A stretch of 64,000 nt of DNA from Anaerolineae bacterium (lineage in GTDB: Bacteria > Chloroflexota > Anaerolineae > Caldilineales > Caldilineaceae), in contig JAUIHI010000035.1 of assembly GCA_030432295.1 (NCBI GenBank), positions 1-64,000 of the forward strand, in the 5' to 3' direction. The translations under genes were made by a program, and so were the position numbers. Shown piece by piece: positions 520 to 64,000 of the stretch. Positions within the stretch are counted from its first letter, which is position 1. Each line of letters begins with the position of its first letter. The notes under the pieces were generated by a model that was given only the letters and a program-made list of their open reading frames with translations, did not search any database and was not told where the DNA came from.

Positions 520-3375
520 TCATGACTTCGGCAGGTTCAGATTGTACTCTAAATGCTGCCAGTTCATCGAAGCAAAAAACTGGGGCCATCTCTCCGCATA
601 TTCGGTGCCGTAGCGTTCCGTTAACTCCACGATCTGATCTCTAGGCTTCGTTGACTGGGGGACCAGGGGTGCCGTAATATCAACATCAACCCTTCCATCA
701 GAATTGAAGTGTGTATAGACCGGTACGAAAGTCGCTCTCGTCGTAACAGCTAACTCCGCTGCACCAATCTGAAATGGGCGATGCCGACCCCAAAAAGGAA
801 TATCAATGGCCTGATTGCCCTGCCTGCCATCCGCTGCCAGCATGACCACGCCACCTCTGCGTAGAATTTGTTGGGCATTCCAGAGCATTATGGATCGGTT
901 CAGGGTTCCAACGCGGCGGGCTCCACTTATCCATCCTGTTTCATATCCGTTTTGCTTGCTTATCTCTAATAGCTCGGCCATAATCCGCCCAACATGGGGA
1001 ATAGCCAGCACGGTCCCTTGGGGGGACAGCGGGCGTTCCAGTAAAGCGTTATACGGATCAGCAATCCTGAACCATCTATTTGGAATCCCAATGTGCATTA
1101 TCGCATATCGACGCCAGTCTAGCCATGTATTTGCAAGAAGATTAGTGGTTATGATCTGACCACGGTTCTCCTCAACTCCCAGTTCTTGACACCACTGCTC
1201 AAGCACTTCCTGTTGCCTGATGAAGCGCCTTCGGAAAGAAGGCTGTGCAATGAGAAGGCGTTGAAGTCTTACACCCATGATATATCGATATCCACGCCAG
1301 ACCGGACCGGTTGTAAAGAACTGGTCTCTCAGTTTTCCACGAAACGAGCGCGCTTGTTTCCGAGTTGGGCGGGCCAGCGGTGATGAGTCGGAGCCATTGA
1401 CAGGGGCTTCTCGGATTTCCGGCCTTGCCATCAGCAACTGTGCCAAATGGCTCGCCGTGGGATCATGGAAAAATTCCGTTACTATGATTTTGCCCGTCGC
1501 TTCCTCTACCAAGAGTAACATCCGTAGCGCGATCAGCGAATCGCCACCCAACGCAAAGAAATCGTCATCTGGTTGTACCGTCTCCAGGCTCAGCATCTCG
1601 GCGAACAGGGCGGTCAGCGCCTGTTCCAGCAATGCAGGATCATCACCGGCTGTTCGCAGCAACGCCACCCCTGGCGTCTCCATCTGATGGCCTTCGGTCA
1701 AGTATTTCTCCCGATTGGCAGCCCGCCCGATCTTGGCATCGGATTGCACCACCCAGCCCTTGGGTACAAAACGGATATCAGCCAGTGTCACGTCCAGCCG
1801 ATCCTGCACCCTGCGCGTGATTCCGGCTCGCCAGTCGGCAAGTTGTCCCTCCGATTCATCGAAGCGGGTCTCGCACACCAACACCGGCCGCTCGGTGCCG
1901 AGCGCTTCGTCCCGTAGACTGAAAGCCACCGCTAAACGTCCACTCCGTCCCAGCAGATTTGTAGCGAGCTCCTCAATGGCTTGGGGCTGGATATTCTGCC
2001 CACCTACGATGATCAGATCGTCCTTGCGTCCCAGGATGAAAAGCTCACCATCGACTAAATAACCTAAATCGCCACTACAATACCAATCCTCGTGCATTGC
2101 CTGGGCAGAAAGGTCTGGACGCCGATAATAGCCTGAAAAGCATTGATCCGAACGGATTAGTACTTCACCGACGACGCGCTCGGACACGGAACGCCGTTCA
2201 TTATCGACAACTTTTACCTCCACACCCAGGAAAGGCAGTCCGCAGCCAACAACGGCCCGACAATCGCAACTCCCTTCTGAAACTGGTTCGGCAAAGCCAT
2301 TCCCGCGTAGTCGCTCGTGGGCCACCCAATCTACCCGGATCGAGTGTCCAAAAGCGCTGGCCGAAATACCACACACTTGCTCTGCCATCCCATAAATGCT
2401 GCACAGTGCCTTTTCTTTGAGGCCACATCGCCCGAAACGCCCATAGAAAACTTGTAGACTTTCCTGCGTGATTAATTCTGCCGCAACAATGATGGTATGG
2501 AGGCTTTCCAGGTTGTATTCCTCAGGTTGAGGATGTGAGATACGACGCGCCATGAAATTCAGAGCAAAATTGGGCAGAAACGTGGTGCCTCCTCGGTAAA
2601 CTGTGACTGCTATCCATAGCAATTCGGGGCGAGCAACCCAGTCAGTCGGCTTGATATGAACCGATAGCCTCCCCATTACCAGTGAGACCAAGAGGCAAAA
2701 TACCAGTCCGGCGTCATGGCTGAAAGGCATACAGCCCACAACGGATCCAGCCTTCTGGTATCTAGCATCAATCGTGCGCTTGATATTCAGCATAACCGCT
2801 TTTTGAGACAAAACGGCTAATTTAGGTACCCCCGTCGTCCCGCTCGTCAGTTGCAGATAGAGCGCCTCGTCATCATCTCGGTCATACACAGAAAACCCCT
2901 GCGGCGGCATTTCACTCTCTCCTAGACCGAACGCATGAACCTGACAGTTCAGCCCGGCCAGCCGTTCTTGCGCTAACTCCGTCACGGCTGGTGTAGCAAA
3001 AACAGCAGCCGCTTCCGTATGCCGGATCAGTACCTCCAGTTGATCGAGATAAGTATCCAGCGCCTTAGGCCGCGGATAGGGTAAAATGACTGGCACGACC
3101 CCGAAAGCGATTGCCCCGAGAAAGCCTGTTACCAGGTAGTAGCTGTGGTCCAACGCCAACAGCACGACATTACCTGGCTGCACACCTTGCTCGCTCCAGG
3201 CCCAGGCGGTCTTTCGTATATCAGCATAGACCTCGCCAAATGTAGCGACAGTCTGTTCCTGGCCCTCGGCATTGAGAAATATCAAAGCGCGCTGATCAGG
3301 GCGTTCGTTAGCGTGACATTGAATCGCCGCCATCAACGACGAATGTTCTGCGGATCGCTGCTGAGCTTCGTTCAA
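520..3375 (-). CDS. Fatty acyl-AMP ligase / acyl carrier / LpxL-type acyltransferase fusion
   Basis: About 951 aa with three domains. Residues ~10-560 are an AMP-forming ligase (LTSGTTGVPK near residue 175; SGDLGYLVDGELFILGRKDD near 430), of the FAAL type that activates fatty acids as adenylates. Near residue 585 is a carrier domain with the phosphopantetheine site GGDSL. Residues ~690-940 are a lysophospholipid-acyltransferase/LpxL-like domain. Inferred role: load a fatty acid on the carrier and transfer it to an acceptor at the membrane. The TTG start at 3375 is chosen because AGGAG lies 7 nt upstream and the codon overlaps the stop of the upstream ABC gene (TTGA); an ATG at 3333 has no such site. 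Oddity: the acyltransferase box reads HVGRIM where a His-x4-acid motif is expected. Confidence 0.8.
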   Translation of the reverse strand: MNEAQQRSAEHSSLMAAIQCHANERPDQRALIFLNAEGQEQTVATFGEVYADIRKTAWAWSEQGVQPGNVVLLALDHSYYLVTGFLGAIAFGVVPVILPYPRPKALDTYLDQLEVLIRHTEAAAVFATPAVTELAQERLAGLNCQVHAFGLGESEMPPQGFSVYDRDDDEALYLQLTSGTTGVPKLAVLSQKAVMLNIKRTIDARYQKAGSVVGCMPFSHDAGLVFCLLVSLVMGRLSVHIKPTDWVARPELLWIAVTVYRGGTTFLPNFALNFMARRISHPQPEEYNLESLHTIIVAAELITQESLQVFYGRFGRCGLKEKALCSIYGMAEQVCGISASAFGHSIRVDWVAHERLRGNGFAEPVSEGSCDCRAVVGCGLPFLGVEVKVVDNERRSVSERVVGEVLIRSDQCFSGYYRRPDLSAQAMHEDWYCSGDLGYLVDGELFILGRKDDLIIVGGQNIQPQAIEELATNLLGRSGRLAVAFSLRDEALGTERPVLVCETRFDESEGQLADWRAGITRRVQDRLDVTLADIRFVPKGWVVQSDAKIGRAANREKYLTEGHQMETPGVALLRTAGDDPALLEQALTALFAEMLSLETVQPDDDFFALGGDSLIALRMLLLVEEATGKIIVTEFFHDPTASHLAQLLMARPEIREAPVNGSDSSPLARPTRKQARSFRGKLRDQFFTTGPVWRGYRYIMGVRLQRLLIAQPSFRRRFIRQQEVLEQWCQELGVEENRGQIITTNLLANTWLDWRRYAIMHIGIPNRWFRIADPYNALLERPLSPQGTVLAIPHVGRIMAELLEISKQNGYETGWISGARRVGTLNRSIMLWNAQQILRRGGVVMLAADGRQGNQAIDIPFWGRHRPFQIGAAELAVTTRATFVPVYTHFNSDGRVDVDITAPLVPQSTKPRDQIVELTERYGTEYAERWPQFFASMNWQHLEYNLNLPKS

Positions 3376-4885
3376 ACCAAGACTCCTATCTTGTCGTCTT
3401 TGTTCTGCCGCCCGGTCTCCCGCATCTGCGCCTCCCATGATTGGGCATACCGCCCGCCCAGCGCCACCAATTCGGTGTGACTGCCGGACTCGATGATGCG
3501 CCCCCCCACCATCACGTGGATGATGTCGGCCTGCATGGCAGTGGTGAAACGATGAGTGATGATCAAGGCCGTGCGCCCGGTCACCAGATCCTGGAAGCGG
3601 CCCATCCAGGCATTTTCGGCCCAACTATCCATAGCGCTGGTCGGCTCGTCCAGGATCACCAGGTCGGCTTTGCGCACGAAGGCCCGGGCTAGGGCCACCC
3701 GTTGCCATTCGCCCACGCTCAACTCGGTGTAACCAAACCATTTGCCCAGGATGGTCTCGTAGCCGTTGGGCAGTTTGTCGATGGTCTCGTGGGCGCCGCC
3801 AGCCAGGGCCGCGGCTTTAATCTGGGCTTGGGTGGGTTGATTGACCATATCGCCAAAGCGGATGTTGTCCGCCGCGCTGTTGTGGTAGGGGTAAGGCTGC
3901 TGAAAAAGGACGGTGATACGTTGTCGCAGGGCCGTTTGGGTCAGATCCCGCAGATCCACTCCGTCCCAGGCGATCCGCCTCTGCTGGGGGTCGTAAAAAC
4001 GGCAAAGCAGTTTGAGCATGGTGCTCTTGCCCGCTCCGTTTTCGCCGACGATGGCGACGATTTGGCCTGCGGGGATCGCCAGGTTGAATCCCTCCAGTGC
4101 CATCTTGTCGCTGTCGGGATAGCTGAAGGTCACATTCTCGATCTGGATGCCGTGGGCCAGACCCGGCGTCAGGCTGACCGGTTCAGCCGGATCAACGAGC
4201 AGGGGTTTTAGGTCGAGGAAGGCGAAAAGGTCTTCCAAGAATAGCAGGTTGCGGTAGATGTCGCTCACGCCGGTCAGTTGATTGCGCATCAACTGTTGAC
4301 CCTGATTCATGGCAGCCCAGAACATGGCCAGGTCGCCCAGGTTGAAAAGGCCCTGCAACGCCCGCCAGGCCATCCAGCCCAAGGCCAGGGCCAAGGTGAG
4401 TAGCCCCATGAGACCCGCTCCAATTTGGGCCACCATTTGCTCTTTGGCCAGACTCAGTCGCTCGCTCCGCAATGTGGCCCGCAGTTGGCTGTAGGCATGC
4501 TTGAAGTGCTCGCCCAATCCAAAGATGCGAATCTCGGCTGCTGGGCGCTCAGTCACCAGATTATTGTGATAATAGTTGAAGCAGCGTTGGTTCATTGTGT
4601 TAGCCAATTGCCAGCGATGAAAGGCCACAGTTGTGCGCAAGGCTACCCACAATGCGGACGCAGTACCAGCCAGCAGAGGACAGACTGTAACGTCGCCGTA
4701 TCCCCTTTGCTGTCGATGACAGCTACCAGGGCGTTGATCACAGAGCGGGTCAGATAAACTGTGAAAACCGGCAGGAGTCCTTGAATCAGGAGGCCAGGGT
4801 CCAGCCCGACGCGGCCACCCAGACCAGCCGCAAAGTGCGCGGTAACATAGCATAGCTGTTCCAATTGGCTGCGTGGCGTGAGCAA
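3372..4885 (-). pseudogene. ABC exporter (permease-ATPase), frameshifted and internally deleted
   Basis: The C-terminal part is a good exporter ATPase: Walker A GENGAGKST, signature LSVGEWQR, Walker B LVILDEPTS. The N-terminal piece (first membrane helix, LLIQGLLPVFTVYL) is in a different frame, read from a TTG at 4885 to a stop at 4643. The main frame takes over only around 4650-4690. After the join the sequence runs almost directly from helix 2 to the EIRIFGLGE region that normally follows helix 4, so roughly 100 residues (parts of helices 2-4) appear missing compared with ~600-aa relatives. I read this as a decayed transporter; a sequencing indel could explain the frameshift but not the missing segment. 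It lies between a GT2 gene and the FAAL gene, overlapping the latter. Confidence 0.65.
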
Positions 4886-56556: not shown

Positions 56557-59133
56557 ATGACGATCCTCTACCTCTCCCTGGCCTATCTGATAGGAATTGG
56601 CGTCGGGCGTCTCCTCTGGGGCGCCGGGCTGATCGGCTGTGGCTTTCCTGTATGGCCCTGGCTGCTGCCTTTGGCGGCCCTGCCCCTGCCCTTTTTCTGG
56701 CAAAACCGACAACAGATTCGCGGCGGTCCGCCCCTGCGCTGGCCTGTGACCGCAGGTTTTACCCCGCCTGTGGCCGATTGGAACAGCGCTCTGGCCGCGG
56801 CTTTGCTTCTGGCTGCGCTCGCCGGTCTGCTGCGCTATGCCAGCCAGCCGGACCAGCCCTGCGCCACGCCGACCGATTTAGCCTATTATAACAGCCGCAA
56901 CCCGGATGGGGCAGCAGAGCAGGCGGTCACTCTGATTGGCTATGTGGACAACTATCCGACGGCGAAGAATGGCCGCCAGCAGCTAACTGTGCGGGTGGAG
57001 AGTCTGCGGGTGAATGGGGTAGACCAGCCGGTCACGGGTCGGGCGCGGTTGAGCGCCAGTGTGGAGCCTCGCTATATCTACGGGCAACCGGTGCGGGTGG
57101 AAGGGCTGCTGGTGGAGCCGCCGGTCTTTGAATCTTTCGACTACCGGGCCTATCTTGCCCGCAAGGGTGTCCACAGCCAGATATTGCGCCCCCAAGTGGC
57201 AAAAAGCGACGGCCCGAACCGGGGCAATCTGCTATTCCGCACCCTCTATGCCCTGCGCGCCCGGGGCGAGGGGGTGATCAACCGTCTCCTGCCCGAACCC
57301 TACGCCGCGCTCTCCAACGGGATGCTGCTGGGCATCGAAGCGGGCATCCCCGACGAACTCTACGAACAGTTCAACCTGACCGGGACTAGCCACGTCATCG
57401 TCATCAGCGGATCCAATGTGGCAATTGTCGCTGGTGTGGTGATGGCCCTCTTTGTGCGGCTGTGGGGACGGCGGCGTGCGCTCTGGCCCACCCTGGCCGG
57501 TATCGGCCTGTATGCCCTGCTGGTGGGTGGCGATCCCGCGGTGATGCGGGCCGCGTTGATGGGTTCGCTCTTTGTAGTGGCGACGGTCCTCAACCGCCAA
57601 AGCACCGCGCTGATCAGCCTGGGCGCGGCCTGCTGGGTAATGACGCTGCTCAATCCCCTCACCCTTTGGGATGTGGGCTTTGAACTGAGCAGCGCGGCCA
57701 CCGCGGGTCTGATTCTTTTTTCGCCGAGTTTGTCTGCGGGATTGAATCGATTGTGGCCTGGGATGGCACAAGCTGGTCATTTGACTGGCAGCGCGCTCGA
57801 AAAGGGCGGCTCAGTCGTGCGCGGTCTGATCGAAGACGGCCTGCTGGTGACATTGGCCGCTAACCTGACGACCCTTCCGCTGGTGGTCTACTATTTTGGC
57901 CGTCTCAGTCTGGTTAGTCTGCTGACAAATCTGTTGATTGTCCCGGTGCAACCTTTCATTATGCTGTGGGGAGGGGCGGGGCTGCTGGTCGGCCTGACCG
58001 GTGTCGAGTGGCTGGCCCAACCACTTCTGTGGATTCCCTATCTCTGCCTGTTGTGGACAGTGGGAATGGTGCGCTGGAGCGCGGCCTTGCCCTGGGCCAG
58101 TGTGGAGGTGTTCAGTTACGGGCTGGGCAGTCTGTTTCTGACCTATCTGCTGCTCTTTAGCTGGCACGGGCGCGCCGGGCTGGTGAAGATATTGCGCTGG
58201 CGTCCCCGAATTTCCCCGCCGACCCTCTGGCGCTGGAGCAGTGCGGTGGCTCTGCCGGCGCTGGGAATCGGCGTGCTGCTGCTCTGGCAGGTGCTGCTCT
58301 CCCGCCCGGATGGGACGCTCCATCTCTGGTTTCTGGACATCGGCCAGGGCGACGGGATTCTGATACAGACCCCCAGCGGACGTCAGATACTCATCGACGG
58401 GGGCAGCGACTCCCAGCGGCTTTTTGCCCAGTTGGGCGGGGTGATGCCTTTCTGGGATCGCTCTTTGGATCTGGTCGTCGCCACCCACCCGGATTGGGAT
58501 CATATGGGCGCACAGATCGGGCTGCCGGATCGTTTTGCCATTGAGCAGGCGCTCGTCAGCGAAAATCTGTACGAGAATGCGGATTTCGACGACTGGCGGA
58601 CCGGAATGGCGGACGCAGGGGCATCGATTGCCAGCCAGTCCCAGGGTGGATGGATCGATCTGGGCGATGGGGTGGCCCTGTGGGTTCTCTGGCCGCCGCC
58701 AGAGGAAGCGATGCCGCCGGTGGAAGATGACGACAAGAACGAACGCTCACTGGTGCTGCGGCTGGTCTATGGGGAATTCAGCGTCCTGCTCACCGGGGAT
58801 GCAGGGCTGCCTGCGGAGAAGGCGATGGCGGGTGGGGGAGAGCCTCTGCCCGCCCACATTCTGAAGGTAGGCCATCACGGCAGTCGCAGCAGCACAGGCC
58901 CCGATTTCGTTCAGGCAGTGCAGCCGGAGATCGCTGTGATTCAGGTGGGCGAGAATCGCTACGGCCACCCAGCGGAGGATGTGCTGGCTACTTTGGCCGG
59001 GCGTCTGGTCCTGCGCAACGACCTGCAGGGCCGTATTCATGTGCGCAGCGATGGGGTGCAGATGTGGGTTGAGACGGAGCGGCGGAATCCGTTGGAAACG
59101 GAGGATGTCAGTCCAGGTCGCCCTGAGGAATGA
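56557..59133 (+). CDS. comEC: ComEC/Rec2 DNA-uptake channel protein
   Basis: 858 aa. N-terminal helices and a DUF4131 region; the competence domain with FNLTGTSHVIVISGSNVAIVAG and many helices (~240-560); then a metallo-beta-lactamase-like domain from WFLDIGQGDGILIQTPSGRQILIDGG through ATHPDWDHMG to LKVGHHGSRSSTG. It moves single-stranded DNA across the membrane in natural transformation. Its last 26 bp overlap the 3' end of the opposing kinase gene, so convergent transcription may interfere. Confidence 0.95.
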   Translation: MTILYLSLAYLIGIGVGRLLWGAGLIGCGFPVWPWLLPLAALPLPFFWQNRQQIRGGPPLRWPVTAGFTPPVADWNSALAAALLLAALAGLLRYASQPDQPCATPTDLAYYNSRNPDGAAEQAVTLIGYVDNYPTAKNGRQQLTVRVESLRVNGVDQPVTGRARLSASVEPRYIYGQPVRVEGLLVEPPVFESFDYRAYLARKGVHSQILRPQVAKSDGPNRGNLLFRTLYALRARGEGVINRLLPEPYAALSNGMLLGIEAGIPDELYEQFNLTGTSHVIVISGSNVAIVAGVVMALFVRLWGRRRALWPTLAGIGLYALLVGGDPAVMRAALMGSLFVVATVLNRQSTALISLGAACWVMTLLNPLTLWDVGFELSSAATAGLILFSPSLSAGLNRLWPGMAQAGHLTGSALEKGGSVVRGLIEDGLLVTLAANLTTLPLVVYYFGRLSLVSLLTNLLIVPVQPFIMLWGGAGLLVGLTGVEWLAQPLLWIPYLCLLWTVGMVRWSAALPWASVEVFSYGLGSLFLTYLLLFSWHGRAGLVKILRWRPRISPPTLWRWSSAVALPALGIGVLLLWQVLLSRPDGTLHLWFLDIGQGDGILIQTPSGRQILIDGGSDSQRLFAQLGGVMPFWDRSLDLVVATHPDWDHMGAQIGLPDRFAIEQALVSENLYENADFDDWRTGMADAGASIASQSQGGWIDLGDGVALWVLWPPPEEAMPPVEDDDKNERSLVLRLVYGEFSVLLTGDAGLPAEKAMAGGGEPLPAHILKVGHHGSRSSTGPDFVQAVQPEIAVIQVGENRYGHPAEDVLATLAGRLVLRNDLQGRIHVRSDGVQMWVETERRNPLETEDVSPGRPEE

Positions 59134-61669
59134 CAAAAGTGATGATAGTTTCCACGCCAAGCTTGCTTTCCGCCCAGATGCTCCCCCCGTGGACTTGTAC
59201 AATGTCCCGCACCAGTGCCAGCCCCAGACCTGTGCCCCCAAACCGGCGGGTGGCAGATCCATCGATCTGGTAAAAGTCCAGCCAGATATTGTCAAGCTCT
59301 TCCGGCGCAATCCCAATCCCCTCGTCACGCACAGAGACAAAGATGGCGGGCGATTCTGCTGTCTCCTCGGCCAGAGAATCAGAAGCAAAGAGCGCGGCGT
59401 TTGCGTCAGTCTCTTCATTTTTGAACTTGTGTTGTCCGCCACGCACAGCAATTGTAATTGTACCACCTTCCGGGCTGAATTTCACTGCGTTGCTCAGAAG
59501 ATTACTGAATACCTGGTTGAGTTGGGCTGGATTGGCACGCACAAAAAGCTGACTCTCTTCACAGTCAAAGACAAACTGGTGGGGTGTGCGGCCCGCATAG
59601 TTGGGATTGGTGGCCAGGGTGCGGGCGGTTTGCAGTGCCTCCTGGGCACTCTCAATCACATTGAACTTGATCATCTCCATTTCCTGGGCGCGGGCCTGTT
59701 GATAGGCGATCAGATCGTTGATCATCGTGCGCAGGTCCTGGGCACGGTCGGCCACGATGGAGAGAAGCTCGGTTTGCTCGTCAGAGAGATCACCCGCTAT
59801 CCCGTCCATCAACAGATCTGTATAGCCGGAAATGGCTGTCAGGGGCGTGCGCAATTCGTGGGAGATGTTGCGCAGCATATCGTTCTTCACCCGGATAGCC
59901 CGGCGTAGTTCAAAATTGGTCCGCTCCAATTCGTCAGCCCGGCGTTGCTCGATCCCAAAGAGGCGGGCGGATTCGAGCGCGATCCCGACCTGGCTGCCCA
60001 GTGTCATCAGCAGTTCGACATCCCGCTGGGGATAGAAGTCGTCCGGGTCCCGTCGGCCAAAGAGCCATATACCCACAGAGCGGCCATCCAACTCGATGGG
60101 AATTACCAGCCGCACCCAATCGAAGCCAGCGGGCAGGGGCTGATCTTCTGGCCTGTTTCTGTCGGGCCGAAAGGTGCGGAAGTAGGGTTTGAACTGGTCA
60201 ATATCTTCTATTGGCAACAGCGAGGGGATCTCCGGTGTCTGTTCCGTATAGACGCGCTGTACCTGCTCATCCACCAGCCAATAGAGGGCAGACTGGCGGA
60301 TGAGCAGACTGGGCATGACCTGATTTGTCAACAGGGCGGAGAGATACGTCGGGTTCAGTGCCCGGGGGATTGCGTTGGCAAACTGCTGGACGATGTGCTC
60401 TGGTTCGTATGTTGTGCCATACACCAGCCGGTTCATAAAGCGTTCAAAGGGCGGGCGTACTGCAAAGGCTGCCACCATATAGATAGTAGCAATCAGAATG
60501 GCCACATTGGGGGTAAGCGTGAACCACTGACCAGCCAGCACGAACGCAAAGATAAAAAGCGTTGCATAGAGCATCACAAAGCTATAGGTGGTAAGCGCCC
60601 GATTGGCCCGCACCTCCTGGTCGCCCAGCCGGTGCTTGTAAAGCGCATAGGTGTAAAAAAATGAGAGGGTGGGGATGGCAAGCGTCGCCAGGAAGGTGAC
60701 GCTTGGTGACGCTGTATAGTCTTTGACAAAAATGTTGGGCACCAAATAGAGCAGAATCCCTGGGAGTAACGAGACCCCGATTCCCAACAGCATCAAATTT
60801 AATGCTGATCGTTCGGCTGGCAAGCCAGGTCGCAGGGTGCGCATCAACAAAAGCAGCAGGCTGCCGCCAATGCCGATGACCAGCGCCAGGTAGTAGGTGG
60901 ACAGGGGAACCACGCCCAGCATATTGAGCAGCGCCATCAGCCCAGCGACGACGTAGAGTACAGAAATCCACCAACGCCCCTTCAGTGGAAGCGGACTTGG
61001 CATCAGCAAATGGAGATGGAGATAGACGGGCATAATCAGCCAGGAAAGACCAATGGAGAGGTAGACCGAGCCAAATATCTGGGAAAAGGAGACTGTCCCA
61101 ATAGCAATCCAAAGACCAGTGACATAGTTTTGCAGGATGAGCAACCGCCAGCGGATATCTTTAGGGCGCAGAAAGAGGAGGACGGCTGTGCCGGCCAGCC
61201 AAAAAGGCAGGAAGATCCAAATGGTACTTAGGCCCTGTACCTGACTTAAATTCGAACGTTCTGGCATGATCCAGCTAATCTGCATAGCTGCCTCGCCTCG
61301 CACGATGTCCAGCTCTACCAGATCGCCAGCGGCAAAACCACTGAACGGCGTGACAGTTAGGTTCGAATTGTAATCCTCAAGTGTTAGCTTTTCACCGCTC
61401 TCGGGGTTGTAAATGGCGGTGATCCTATCGCCGATTTCGAGAGTATCACGTCCGGTGTTGCAATTAGTGATACTGTCAGTGGCACTATCGAGGAGACATC
61501 TTCTCGGAAAATCGGTAATATGCCAACGGCCGTTGTAGGAAAATCCTGGGTCTGGCACGAGATATACATGGCCGAGGCCATAGATAAAGCCAATCACAAG
61601 CACGGCGGCTGCTGTCAGCACGCCGGACAGGGCATCTTGGGGTAACAAAAACTTCGGTTTGACAGTCAC
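59108..61669 (-). CDS. Multi-pass sensor histidine kinase with ComP-like input domain
   Basis: 853 aa, GTG start 11 nt after the prenyl-synthase-like gene. Helix 1 (VLTAAAVLVIGFIYGLG), an extracytoplasmic PDZ-like loop (~60-135: LEIGDRITAIYN...GDLVELDIVRGEAAMQISW), then about 8-9 helices (~145-410). A GAF-like linker (~440-570) leads to HisKA (NISHELRTPLTAISGY, His near 602) and HATPase_c (NQVFSNLLSNAVKFSPEGG, DEGIGI, FGGTGLGLAL). The input layout matches Bacillus ComP, which also has a PDZ-like loop after helix 1, but the kinase core is HisKA rather than HisKA_3. No response regulator is adjacent. Confidence 0.88.
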   Translation of the reverse strand: MTVKPKFLLPQDALSGVLTAAAVLVIGFIYGLGHVYLVPDPGFSYNGRWHITDFPRRCLLDSATDSITNCNTGRDTLEIGDRITAIYNPESGEKLTLEDYNSNLTVTPFSGFAAGDLVELDIVRGEAAMQISWIMPERSNLSQVQGLSTIWIFLPFWLAGTAVLLFLRPKDIRWRLLILQNYVTGLWIAIGTVSFSQIFGSVYLSIGLSWLIMPVYLHLHLLMPSPLPLKGRWWISVLYVVAGLMALLNMLGVVPLSTYYLALVIGIGGSLLLLLMRTLRPGLPAERSALNLMLLGIGVSLLPGILLYLVPNIFVKDYTASPSVTFLATLAIPTLSFFYTYALYKHRLGDQEVRANRALTTYSFVMLYATLFIFAFVLAGQWFTLTPNVAILIATIYMVAAFAVRPPFERFMNRLVYGTTYEPEHIVQQFANAIPRALNPTYLSALLTNQVMPSLLIRQSALYWLVDEQVQRVYTEQTPEIPSLLPIEDIDQFKPYFRTFRPDRNRPEDQPLPAGFDWVRLVIPIELDGRSVGIWLFGRRDPDDFYPQRDVELLMTLGSQVGIALESARLFGIEQRRADELERTNFELRRAIRVKNDMLRNISHELRTPLTAISGYTDLLMDGIAGDLSDEQTELLSIVADRAQDLRTMINDLIAYQQARAQEMEMIKFNVIESAQEALQTARTLATNPNYAGRTPHQFVFDCEESQLFVRANPAQLNQVFSNLLSNAVKFSPEGGTITIAVRGGQHKFKNEETDANAALFASDSLAEETAESPAIFVSVRDEGIGIAPEELDNIWLDFYQIDGSATRRFGGTGLGLALVRDIVQVHGGSIWAESKLGVETIITFVIPQGDLD

Positions 61670-61680
61670 GGTTCAATCCG

Positions 61681-62667
61681 CTACATTTTTTGTTCAATCA
61701 TCTCAGCTAATGCCCCGTCGATTCCTCGTACAAATTTGACAAAGGGAGCTAACTGCATCTTCAGCAGATGCTCTATCCGCTCCCGCTGGGCCAGCTTCAC
61801 CGAATCAAGACAACTTCGGGCAGCCATCTGGCGCTGCAAAAGCTGGAAGGCGCAATAGCTGACTGCGCCTGAATCGATGAGCAATTGTTGTGCCTTGTGC
61901 AACGCCGAAAGATCGCTGGCCTGGCTTTTGTAGGCCAGAAAGTCCTCTTTTTGAGGATAGTCGGCATTCAGGCCATAGAGGAGGACTAAATTGTTGCGTC
62001 CCTGTGCCCAATCCGAGTTGGCCGGGCTTTGGAAGGCATCCTCAAGATCATCGTAGATTTGAATCGCTTCGCCAAAAAGGACCCCCACATTGTACATCAC
62101 TTCTGTCATTTGGGGCGATGCACCGCCCAGCAGCGCGCCAATTTCCAGACCGATTCCATAGAAGGGGGTGCTTTTGGCCCGCACCACCTGCCAGTAGTTC
62201 TCCTCGCCGTCCAAATTGCGCACATCCAACTCCTGACCGGCGGCTGTGGCCAGGGCCATACGATTGAGCGCGTGGGCAGCTGCGGCCCGATAGGAAGGGT
62301 CAACACTGCATTGGTCTATCAGCACAGATCCGGCGGCCTGCAAGGCCAAGGCCAGATTGGCTGTGCGCCCGATGCCAAAACGCTGGTGCGCACCCTCTGG
62401 CTCCTCATCCAGCATATCGTCCACCAGAATAATGCTCACCTGAACACAGGCCAGGGCCGCCATAGCTGGCAACACATCCGCATATTCCCCGCCAACCGCG
62501 GCACAGGCAATCCCAGGCAACTGCCAGTCCAGACGGATATCGTCCTCGGTATCCGGGAAAAGTTCCTCGACTTCACGCCAGCGGTCCATTCCAGGGACTC
62601 CAAGTATTAGCTTTCGCAATGTGGATGCCGTAATTTTTGATTCCACCAGATAGTCCTTTCCTTGCAT
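61681..62667 (-). CDS. ComQ-like polyprenyl-synthase homologue
   Basis: 328 aa from ATG 62667; an ATG at 62589 with GGAG 8 nt upstream would give 302 aa. All-helical isoprenyl synthase fold with both Asp-rich motifs, D83-D84-M-L-D87 and D206-D207-L-E-D210, plus GQELDV and KSTPFYGIGLEIGALLGG. It lacks the N-terminal GKRxRP and the RRG-x-P motif after the first Asp box (here HQRFGIGRTA), i.e. most isopentenyl-PP contacts of chain-elongating enzymes. ComQ shows the same pattern. It may use a preformed allylic diphosphate to prenylate the upstream peptide; a lipid prenyltransferase role is the alternative. Confidence 0.85.
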   Translation of the reverse strand: MQGKDYLVESKITASTLRKLILGVPGMDRWREVEELFPDTEDDIRLDWQLPGIACAAVGGEYADVLPAMAALACVQVSIILVDDMLDEEPEGAHQRFGIGRTANLALALQAAGSVLIDQCSVDPSYRAAAAHALNRMALATAAGQELDVRNLDGEENYWQVVRAKSTPFYGIGLEIGALLGGASPQMTEVMYNVGVLFGEAIQIYDDLEDAFQSPANSDWAQGRNNLVLLYGLNADYPQKEDFLAYKSQASDLSALHKAQQLLIDSGAVSYCAFQLLQRQMAARSCLDSVKLAQRERIEHLLKMQLAPFVKFVRGIDGALAEMIEQKM

Positions 62668-62872: not shown

Positions 62873-62925
62873 CAAAAAAACATCAGCAGTGTAGCGCCGG
62901 GTAAGCATACGCTACACTGCTGATG
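62873..62925 (-). terminator. Terminator after the 57-aa peptide gene
   Basis: Perfect 16-bp stem: 62910-62925 pairs with 62881-62896 (CATCAGCAGTGTAGCG), with a 13-nt loop, followed on the minus strand by TTTTTTTG. It lies 68 nt after the peptide stop and 214 nt before the longest prenyl-synthase-like frame, so most transcripts should contain only the peptide. Confidence 0.8.
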
Positions 62926-62992
62926 TTTTCAGTCTGTTTGGAGATCGCCTGTGAGAAGTCCGAAGTCTCGGAGAAAACGGATTCTTGGCTTA

Positions 62993-63163
62993 GCGCCAGC
63001 CGACCCAAGAGCCTTGGCCACCGGTGTCGCTTTTGTCAGACATCTTGCGGATATCCGTCGGCGTGCTGGAGGTGGTGATCAGCTCGAAAAGCGCCAGCAG
63101 GCCATCCTTCTGCTCTGACTTCATCATGGACTGAAATTGTTCGATCGTTACCACGGCTTGCAT
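62993..63163 (-). CDS. 57-aa candidate pheromone/RiPP precursor (ComX-like)
   Basis: The ATG at 63163 has a perfect AAGGAG 6 nt upstream; the stop is TAA at 62993. An amphipathic leader-like part (VVTIEQFQSMMKSEQKDGLL, then ALFELITTSS) is followed by a hydrophilic stretch and a tail GGQGSWVGWR with Trp53 and Trp56. No signal peptide. The length (ComX is ~55 aa), the C-terminal Trp, and the position between mutS and a ComQ-like gene followed by a ComP-like kinase suggest a prenylated-Trp signal precursor. ComX sequences are too variable for homology to be claimed. Another peptide natural product is possible. Confidence 0.72.
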
Positions 63164-63226
63164 TGTATGCTCCTTCCCAAGAGGATAAAAAGGTGTTTGG
63201 TGGAACCGTGCCCACCTTCAGTTCCT

Positions 63227-63274: not shown

Positions 63275-64000
63275 CTAACTATCTTTGCTTAGCTTTTGTA
63301 GCTCGTACAGGCGGTTCAGCGCGTCCAGTGGAGTCAAGTGGTTCACATCCATCGTGCGCAGAACCTCTACAACCGGATGGGCGTCGGCAAAGAGACCGAC
63401 TTGCAAGGCCACGGGCCGCTTGCCCTGTTGGGAGACCACATCGTTCAGCCGACGGGGACCAGCCGCGCCGGACTTCTCCAGGTCGTCCAGAATCTCCTTG
63501 GCCCGATGGACCACCTGTTTGGGCAGCCCAGCCATCTCTCCCACGTGGACGCCGTAGGAACGATCTGCCTTGCCGGGCAGAATGCGGTGCAGAAAGACAA
63601 CCTGCTCCCCTCTGTCATCCACAGCCACGTGATAATTGATTACGTGGGGCAGGCGTTCCGATAGATCGGTCAGCTCGTGATAGTGGGTGGCAAAGAGCGT
63701 CTTGGCCTGCAAGGACGGGTGGTTGTGGATATATTCTACCACCGACCAGGCGATAGCAAGTCCGTCATAGGTACTAGTTCCGCGGCCAATTTCGTCCAGG
63801 ACCAGCAGGCTACGCTGGGTAGCGTGGTTCAAGATGTTGGCAGTTTCTACCATTTCCACCATAAATGTGGACTGGCCCCGGTGGATTTCGTCGCTGGCCC
63901 CGATGCGGGTAAAGATGCGATCCACCACGCCGATGTGAGCGGCTTCGGCGGGCACAAAGGAGCCAATTTGGGCCATCAGCACAATCAGCGCGGTCTGGCG
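63275..64000 (-). CDS. mutS: DNA mismatch repair protein MutS, C-terminal part (cut by window edge)
   Basis: The frame is open at base 64000 and reads [18 protein letters not shown], the stretch just after the Walker A site, so the N-terminal two thirds lie outside. Visible: [16 protein letters not shown], Walker [28 protein letters not shown], and the helical C-terminus ending near [13 protein letters not shown]. MutS recognises mismatches and uses ATP to start repair. It is transcribed toward the peptide gene. Confidence 0.97.

Follow-up and report, generated by a model that had tools for sequence, protein, structure and literature searches.

A likely ComQXPA-type prenyl-tryptophan pheromone cassette, of non-canonical form, in the Chloroflexota

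Introduction

Bacillus signals with a small peptide, ComX, that bears a geranyl or farnesyl group on tryptophan. ComQXPA of Bacillus subtilis and its relatives combines a short precursor, which has a conserved leader, a variable tail and a Trp near its C-terminus, with an adjoining isoprenoid-synthase-fold enzyme devoid of IPP-binding motifs and a polytopic receptor kinase with a variable outer domain; each of these traits recurs, together with a homologous sensor, in the locus described here. A 2014 census of genomes to 2013 found ComX-type signals confined to Firmicutes, with none outside (PMC4008528), and a 2022 review credited the Chloroflexi only with an HK-RR pair. We found no later ComQXPA-type report for Chloroflexota in the full-text literature searched, which was mostly without subscription papers, nor any report of a peptide pheromone in the phylum; priority is not certain.

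Other enzymes that prenylate Trp are also comparable. In Paenibacillus alvei the C-terminal Trp prenyl-transferase PalQ, a trans-IDS-like enzyme, acts on the C-terminal Trp of its RiPP, PalX, and favours a Gly directly before the acceptor (PMC13290415). PalQ requires a terminal Trp (PMC10853753), whereas the Chloroflexota precursors usually have one to three residues after it, and no receptor kinase is mentioned in the sections bearing on PalQ, while the new cassette includes one. The tryptophan prenyltransferase Ord1 (PDB 9v4g) shares the fold of our ComQ-like model (TM-score 0.65–0.71), but its substrate is free Trp (PMC13290415) and that predicted for the ComQ-like enzyme is a gene-encoded precursor. 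Cyanobactin Trp prenyltransferases of the KgpF type likewise prenylate Trp of ribosomal peptides, but are of an evolutionary lineage other than the isoprenoid-synthase fold (PMC10853753).

Results

A three-gene cassette in Caldilineaceae

The window (the whole 64,000-nucleotide stretch of DNA analysed, contig JAUIHI010000035.1) comes from an Anaerolineae bacterium of the Caldilineaceae, a family of filamentous bacteria common in activated sludge. Near its end lies a cassette of three genes on the minus strand, the comX-like gene first, with the following features:

63275..64000, minus strand: mutS, 3' part; context, upstream of the comX-like gene on the same strand
63170..63175, minus strand: AAGGAG ribosome-binding site, 6 nt 5' of the precursor ATG
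62990..63163, minus strand: comX-like precursor gene, 57 codons and stop; open in all homologues and under purifying selection
63038..63163, minus strand: precursor codons 1–42, conserved leader (TIEQF..MMKSE...TPTDIRKMS), dN/dS 0.13
63008..63037, minus strand: precursor codons 43–52, variable linker, dN/dS 0.62
62993..63007, minus strand: precursor codons 53–57, WVGWR tail, dN/dS 0.03
62996–62998, minus strand: Trp56, predicted prenylation site, retained by ≥90% of the 26 homologues
62876..62930, minus strand: intrinsic terminator between the comX-like and comQ-like genes, 22-bp stem and U-run
61681..62667, minus strand: ComQ-like enzyme of 328 aa with the isoprenoid-synthase fold, predicted to prenylate Trp in a peptide; PF00348 at 63 bits, IPP-binding motifs absent
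59108..61669, minus strand: ComP-like histidine kinase of 853 aa, with one TM helix (TM1), an extracytoplasmic beta domain and a polytopic membrane part as well as GAF, HisKA and HATPase domains
56557..59133, plus strand: comEC DNA-uptake channel; context, outside the cassette, convergent with the comP-like gene

Held against the criteria of the 2014 census (PMC4008528), the locus has PF00348 in its ComQ-like enzyme, a precursor within the prescribed 52–73 aa with Trp in the last 5–10 residues (57 aa, Trp53 and Trp56) and a polytopic receptor domain related to that of ComP (hhalign P 1.6e-8). It does not meet the requirement for HisKA_3 (PF07730) with HATPase (PF02518), having HisKA (PF00512) with HATPase, nor that for an adjacent ComA (receiver and GerE) on the same strand, nor that for the order Q-X-P-A on one strand, as its order is X-Q-P, also on one strand. 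No response regulator lies next to the kinase in the window, where the comP-like gene is followed by the convergent comEC. Compared with ComQXPA, moreover, the new precursors usually have two Trp (WxGW) and a leader unrelated in sequence, the second Asp-rich region (SARM) of the enzymes is intact where that of ComQ is degenerate, and the phylum is another. By strict criteria, therefore, this is not a member of ComQXPA: it departs in kinase type, in gene order and in the SARM, and it lacks both an adjacent ComA and similarity to ComX.

The precursor is a real and selected gene

The precursor is encoded by codons 63163–62993 with the stop at 62992–62990, and its 57 residues read MQAVVTIEQFQSMMKSEQKDGLLALFELITTSSTPTDIRKMSDKSDTGGQGSWVGWR. 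Random intergenic sequences matched in size and composition contain an open-reading frame this long with such a ribosome site in ~6% of cases, so the frame by itself is weak evidence. Its conservation within the genus without stops, under purifying selection, nonetheless shows by computation that it is a real gene: five of six other same-genus genomes have it, at 68–77% identity over all 57 codons (the exception is an 86% complete genome), and dN/dS (Nei-Gojobori) is 0.18 overall, the leader being conserved, the linker loose and the WVGWR end tightly held. The linker is likely to form part of the mature peptide. Purine-rich sites also occur 5' of the starts of the homologues.

The hairpin of the terminator (62930–62876) is very strong (−43.5 kcal/mol, z −9.5, with 0 of 200 shuffles equally good), and a strong hairpin of differing sequence occupies the comX–comQ intergenic space in all ten Caldilineaceae loci examined.

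The initial annotation, made from the sequence alone, had claimed a 57-codon gene with a perfect AAGGAG site and a dedicated terminator, both of which held, and had read the product as a ComX-like precursor of leader and Trp tail, which the selection pattern supports. It had proposed comparing homologues to see whether the leader is conserved while the tail changes, and this pattern is present in several Chloroflexota families; it had also held that frame disruption in close relatives would refute the gene, and none was found, the five same-genus homologues being free of stops. It was silent on the two downstream genes, ComQ-like and ComP-like, that make the case. Membership of the ComX sequence family is not supported: HHalign found no similarity between the new ComX-like set and four Bacillota ComX, and the ComX profile PF05952 did not match the precursor at E ≤ 1, although this is a weak test, as controls also failed in the six-frame search. 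That search, across 199 genomes of the class, gave nothing above cut-off and was dropped as uninformative because no control genome passed, B. subtilis included.

Trp56 is the better candidate acceptor

An alignment of 26 precursors gave a leader of approximately TIEEFxxLLxS...LLxxLRxLTxxxxPEDVR, followed by diverse tails: SWVGWR, SWAGWR, SWMGWGY, TWQGWAFA, GWMGWGW, GGWVGWE, ATWRWAGG, TAVGWD, TSVGWS, TGVGWK, LWSGWR, TWTDWRPPTS, GWEDWNAV, MAYWY, WGWNWDW and AWTGWW. Trp56 is near-invariant in this alignment. Trp53, on the other hand, is absent in three relatives (G059, G143 and G120), whose single-Trp precursors (ending in GVGWK, AVGWD and SVGWS) retain GW, and Trp56 is thus the better candidate for modification. 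Which Trp is modified had been left open, as had the trimming of Arg57; we consider Trp56 rather than Trp53 the likely prenylation site, an inference from sequence conservation, whilst Arg57 is not general among the homologues and its trimming therefore cannot be judged. G55-W56 is conserved here, and a Gly in this position is what the related PalQ favours.

The ComQ-like enzyme lacks the IPP-binding motifs

The match of the enzyme to the polyprenyl synthetase profile PF00348 is weak (cut-off 27 bits). Trans-isoprenyl diphosphate synthases bind IPP through KRxRP, the RR after FARM and a GKxxGxD loop. None of these motifs occurs in any of 25 new enzymes or in four Bacillota ComQ, whereas in ordinary synthases they are present in 64, 65 and 65 of 65, respectively; the former four are plasmid genes with comX annotated adjacent (L164, L165, L166 and L168) and the 65 comprise two from this genome and the rest from the same scan. 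The first Asp-rich motif (FARM, DDxxD), which holds the allylic donor, is retained in all the new enzymes and the Bacillota ComQ. The loss of the IPP-binding site is thus shown by computation and, with FARM kept, fits an enzyme that prenylates something other than IPP. The SARM, QxxDDxxD, is intact in 25 of 25 new enzymes and in none of the four Bacillota ComQ. Two further synthases of the genome, scoring 226 and 210 bits, are canonical, and we take these to be its housekeeping enzymes.

An AlphaFold model (AF2, pLDDT 92) has the trans-IDS fold, with Ord1 among its structure matches. In an unrooted tree the new enzymes form their own clade (98/99), and they, the Bacillota ComQ and the canonical synthases fall into three separate groups; the branches are long, so a shared ancestor with ComQ remains unresolved. 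Plasmid pREC3 of the cyanobacterium Acaryochloris marina also encodes a ComQ-like enzyme without any IPP-binding motif (L167, 3833–4780), which we rejected as a cassette member, no ComX-like open-reading frame being recognised nearby.

The kinase has a ComP-like sensor

The sensor part of the kinase (residues 1–480) aligns with the ComP sensors of Anoxybacillus and Priestia at an hhalign score of 68.9 (P 1.6e-8), whilst 120 shuffled controls scored ≤29.4 and a reversed one 13, which shows computationally that the membrane sensor is homologous to that of Bacillota ComP. The outer domain alone fell below significance against ComP in hhalign. This extracytoplasmic beta domain has two invariant Cys, and a PDZ-like match was found in the outer domains of both the kinase of an Acidobacteriota relative and Anoxybacillus ComP. 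The extracytoplasmic part is the least conserved of the kinase within the genus (47–65% against 69–87% elsewhere), and in the 2014 census the N-terminal domain was likewise the least conserved part of ComP (PMC4008528). A Foldseek search with the complete kinase model retrieved kinase domains only and was uninformative on the sensor.

Output modules vary, with HisKA in most loci and HisKA with a fused receiver in three (L074, L092 and L093). An Anaerolineales contig (L086) has a full XQPA set, comX-comQ-comP(HisKA_3) followed by a NarL receiver-GerE regulator, whose kinase and adjacent regulator meet the census definitions of ComP and ComA that the window does not (PMC4008528). In one further locus (L078, 4978–6509, genome G320) the comP-like coding sequence is divided between two frames, so that either the receptor has decayed or the assembly is wrong there.

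The three genes occur together across families

A blind search of the class and phylum with the peptide only, using the single sequence and then an 11-sequence profile, matched 20 other Chloroflexota genomes at E ≤ 1e-3. The ComQ-like gene lies directly downstream of the peptide in all 18 genomes with enough contig, and the ComP-like gene follows it in each of the 16 where the next gene could be assessed. Weak tBLASTn matches in G008, G019, G027 and others were discarded as there was no cassette there. In Caldilineaceae the flanking genes are mutS and comEC, while in other families the neighbours differ; the linkage is thus shown by computation, the cassette moving as a whole.

The reverse search, from the ComQ-like enzyme, recovered contigs of Litorilinea, Caldilineaceae, Anaerolineales and other Chloroflexota and, outside the phylum, two Acidobacteriota, one Thermoanaerobaculia and one Cytophagales contig. 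With the peptide profile, 12 of these loci gave a precursor upstream of the enzyme gene, and a 13th, from Cytophagales, did so only at E 0.96; the two remaining contigs, without a precursor, start too close to the enzyme gene. Forward and reverse counts overlap, several named contigs being the same DNA as those of the first search, and the assignment of the short Acidobacteriota and Cytophagales contigs to their phyla is provisional, though the Chloroflexota placement is independent of them.

Wherever the contig of a cassette-bearing Caldilineaceae locus extends that far (relatives L021–L030), comEC adjoins the comP-like gene and is convergent with it, and a link of the cassette to competence is conceivable given this neighbour. 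An empty mutS–comEC site was sought in cassette-free relatives, but comEC was not within 1.5 kb of mutS, so the insertion cannot be dated. PADLOC gave no match. Genes for immunity, transporters or proteases do not accompany the cassette; the sensor kinase does.

Discussion

We consider it likely that the locus is a ComQXPA-type prenyl-tryptophan pheromone system outside the Bacillota, in a variant rather than canonical form. On this reading the open-reading frame would encode a precursor that gives rise to a secreted peptide signal with a prenylated tryptophan. The ComQ-like enzyme would hold an allylic diphosphate (geranyl- or farnesyl-PP) by the DDxxD of FARM and transfer the prenyl group to the Trp at the precursor's C-terminus, most probably Trp56 of WVGW-R. 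The leader would then be cut off and the tail exported by steps that are unknown, as the protease and exporter of ComX also are, and the ComP-like kinase would detect the tail with its extracytoplasmic and membrane domain, phosphorylating a response regulator encoded elsewhere in the genome, the identity of which is unknown. The terminator after the comX-like gene would probably leave the peptide in excess over enzyme and receptor. Prenylation and its site, secretion, sensing and quorum function are all inferred, and it counts against the model that no transcript, product or exporter is known for the cassette.

The alternative that survives best is a variant of this model and not exclusive of it, namely that Trp53 or both Trp are modified, or that the two are linked, rather than Trp56 alone being prenylated. 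In its favour, WVGW, W53 included, is almost invariant within the genus (dN/dS 0.03); against it, the precursors without W53 retain GW, and we consider it unlikely. Less probable still is a prenylated RiPP of other use, antimicrobial or a surface-active lipopeptide, with the kinase an autoregulator or self-sensing receptor and not a density sensor. Other bacteria do make Trp-prenylated peptides of the PalX type as natural products, and peptides tagged by PalQ have antimicrobial activity (PMC10853753, PMC13290415), but the cassette carries a sensor kinase in place of immunity, transporter or protease genes, and the receptor's outer domain changes fastest, as expected of a signal receptor, making this very unlikely. 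An ordinary isoprenyl diphosphate synthase with an unrelated small regulatory open-reading frame nearby by chance would accord with the trans-IDS fold and the intact FARM and SARM, but is all but excluded by the loss of the IPP-binding motifs in 25 of 25 enzymes, the two canonical synthases already in the genome and the peptide–enzyme linkage in 18 of 18 genomes whose other neighbours differ.

If the pheromone reading is true, lipidated-peptide signalling extends to the Chloroflexota, a phylum distant from Bacillus, and the enzymes are new candidate peptide-tryptophan prenyl-transferases with short, defined acceptors, useful for chemistry. The evidence leaves evenly poised a broader view, in which an X-Q-sensor module, marked by an acceptor motif of its own (GW) and by a type of enzyme that keeps the SARM, would be common to several phyla (Chloroflexota, Acidobacteriota, perhaps Bacteroidota), its output modules (HisKA, HisKA_3 with a NarL regulator, hybrid kinases with a fused receiver) having been swapped.

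Related loci

The Cytophagales contig (UBA9432, L096) has its weak ComX-like open-reading frame at 1569–1778, ending SAWQQWVPGQCGQSPSRYLS, upstream of a ComQ-like gene at 2325–3401; no kinase follows the latter, and a TPR protein is encoded upstream. The 4044 bp contig JAHJIN010000073.1 (L080/L085) contains only the X-Q-P cassette and has an exact 124-bp overlap between its two ends; it may be a small circle or a tandem cassette array collapsed in assembly. Finally, a plasmid labelled Stenotrophomonas rhizophila (CP031730.1, L199) carries a complete comQXPA in a layout almost identical to that of a Lysinibacillus plasmid (L166), which could mean that the set has moved into a gammaproteobacterium, or that the assembly is contaminated or wrongly labelled.
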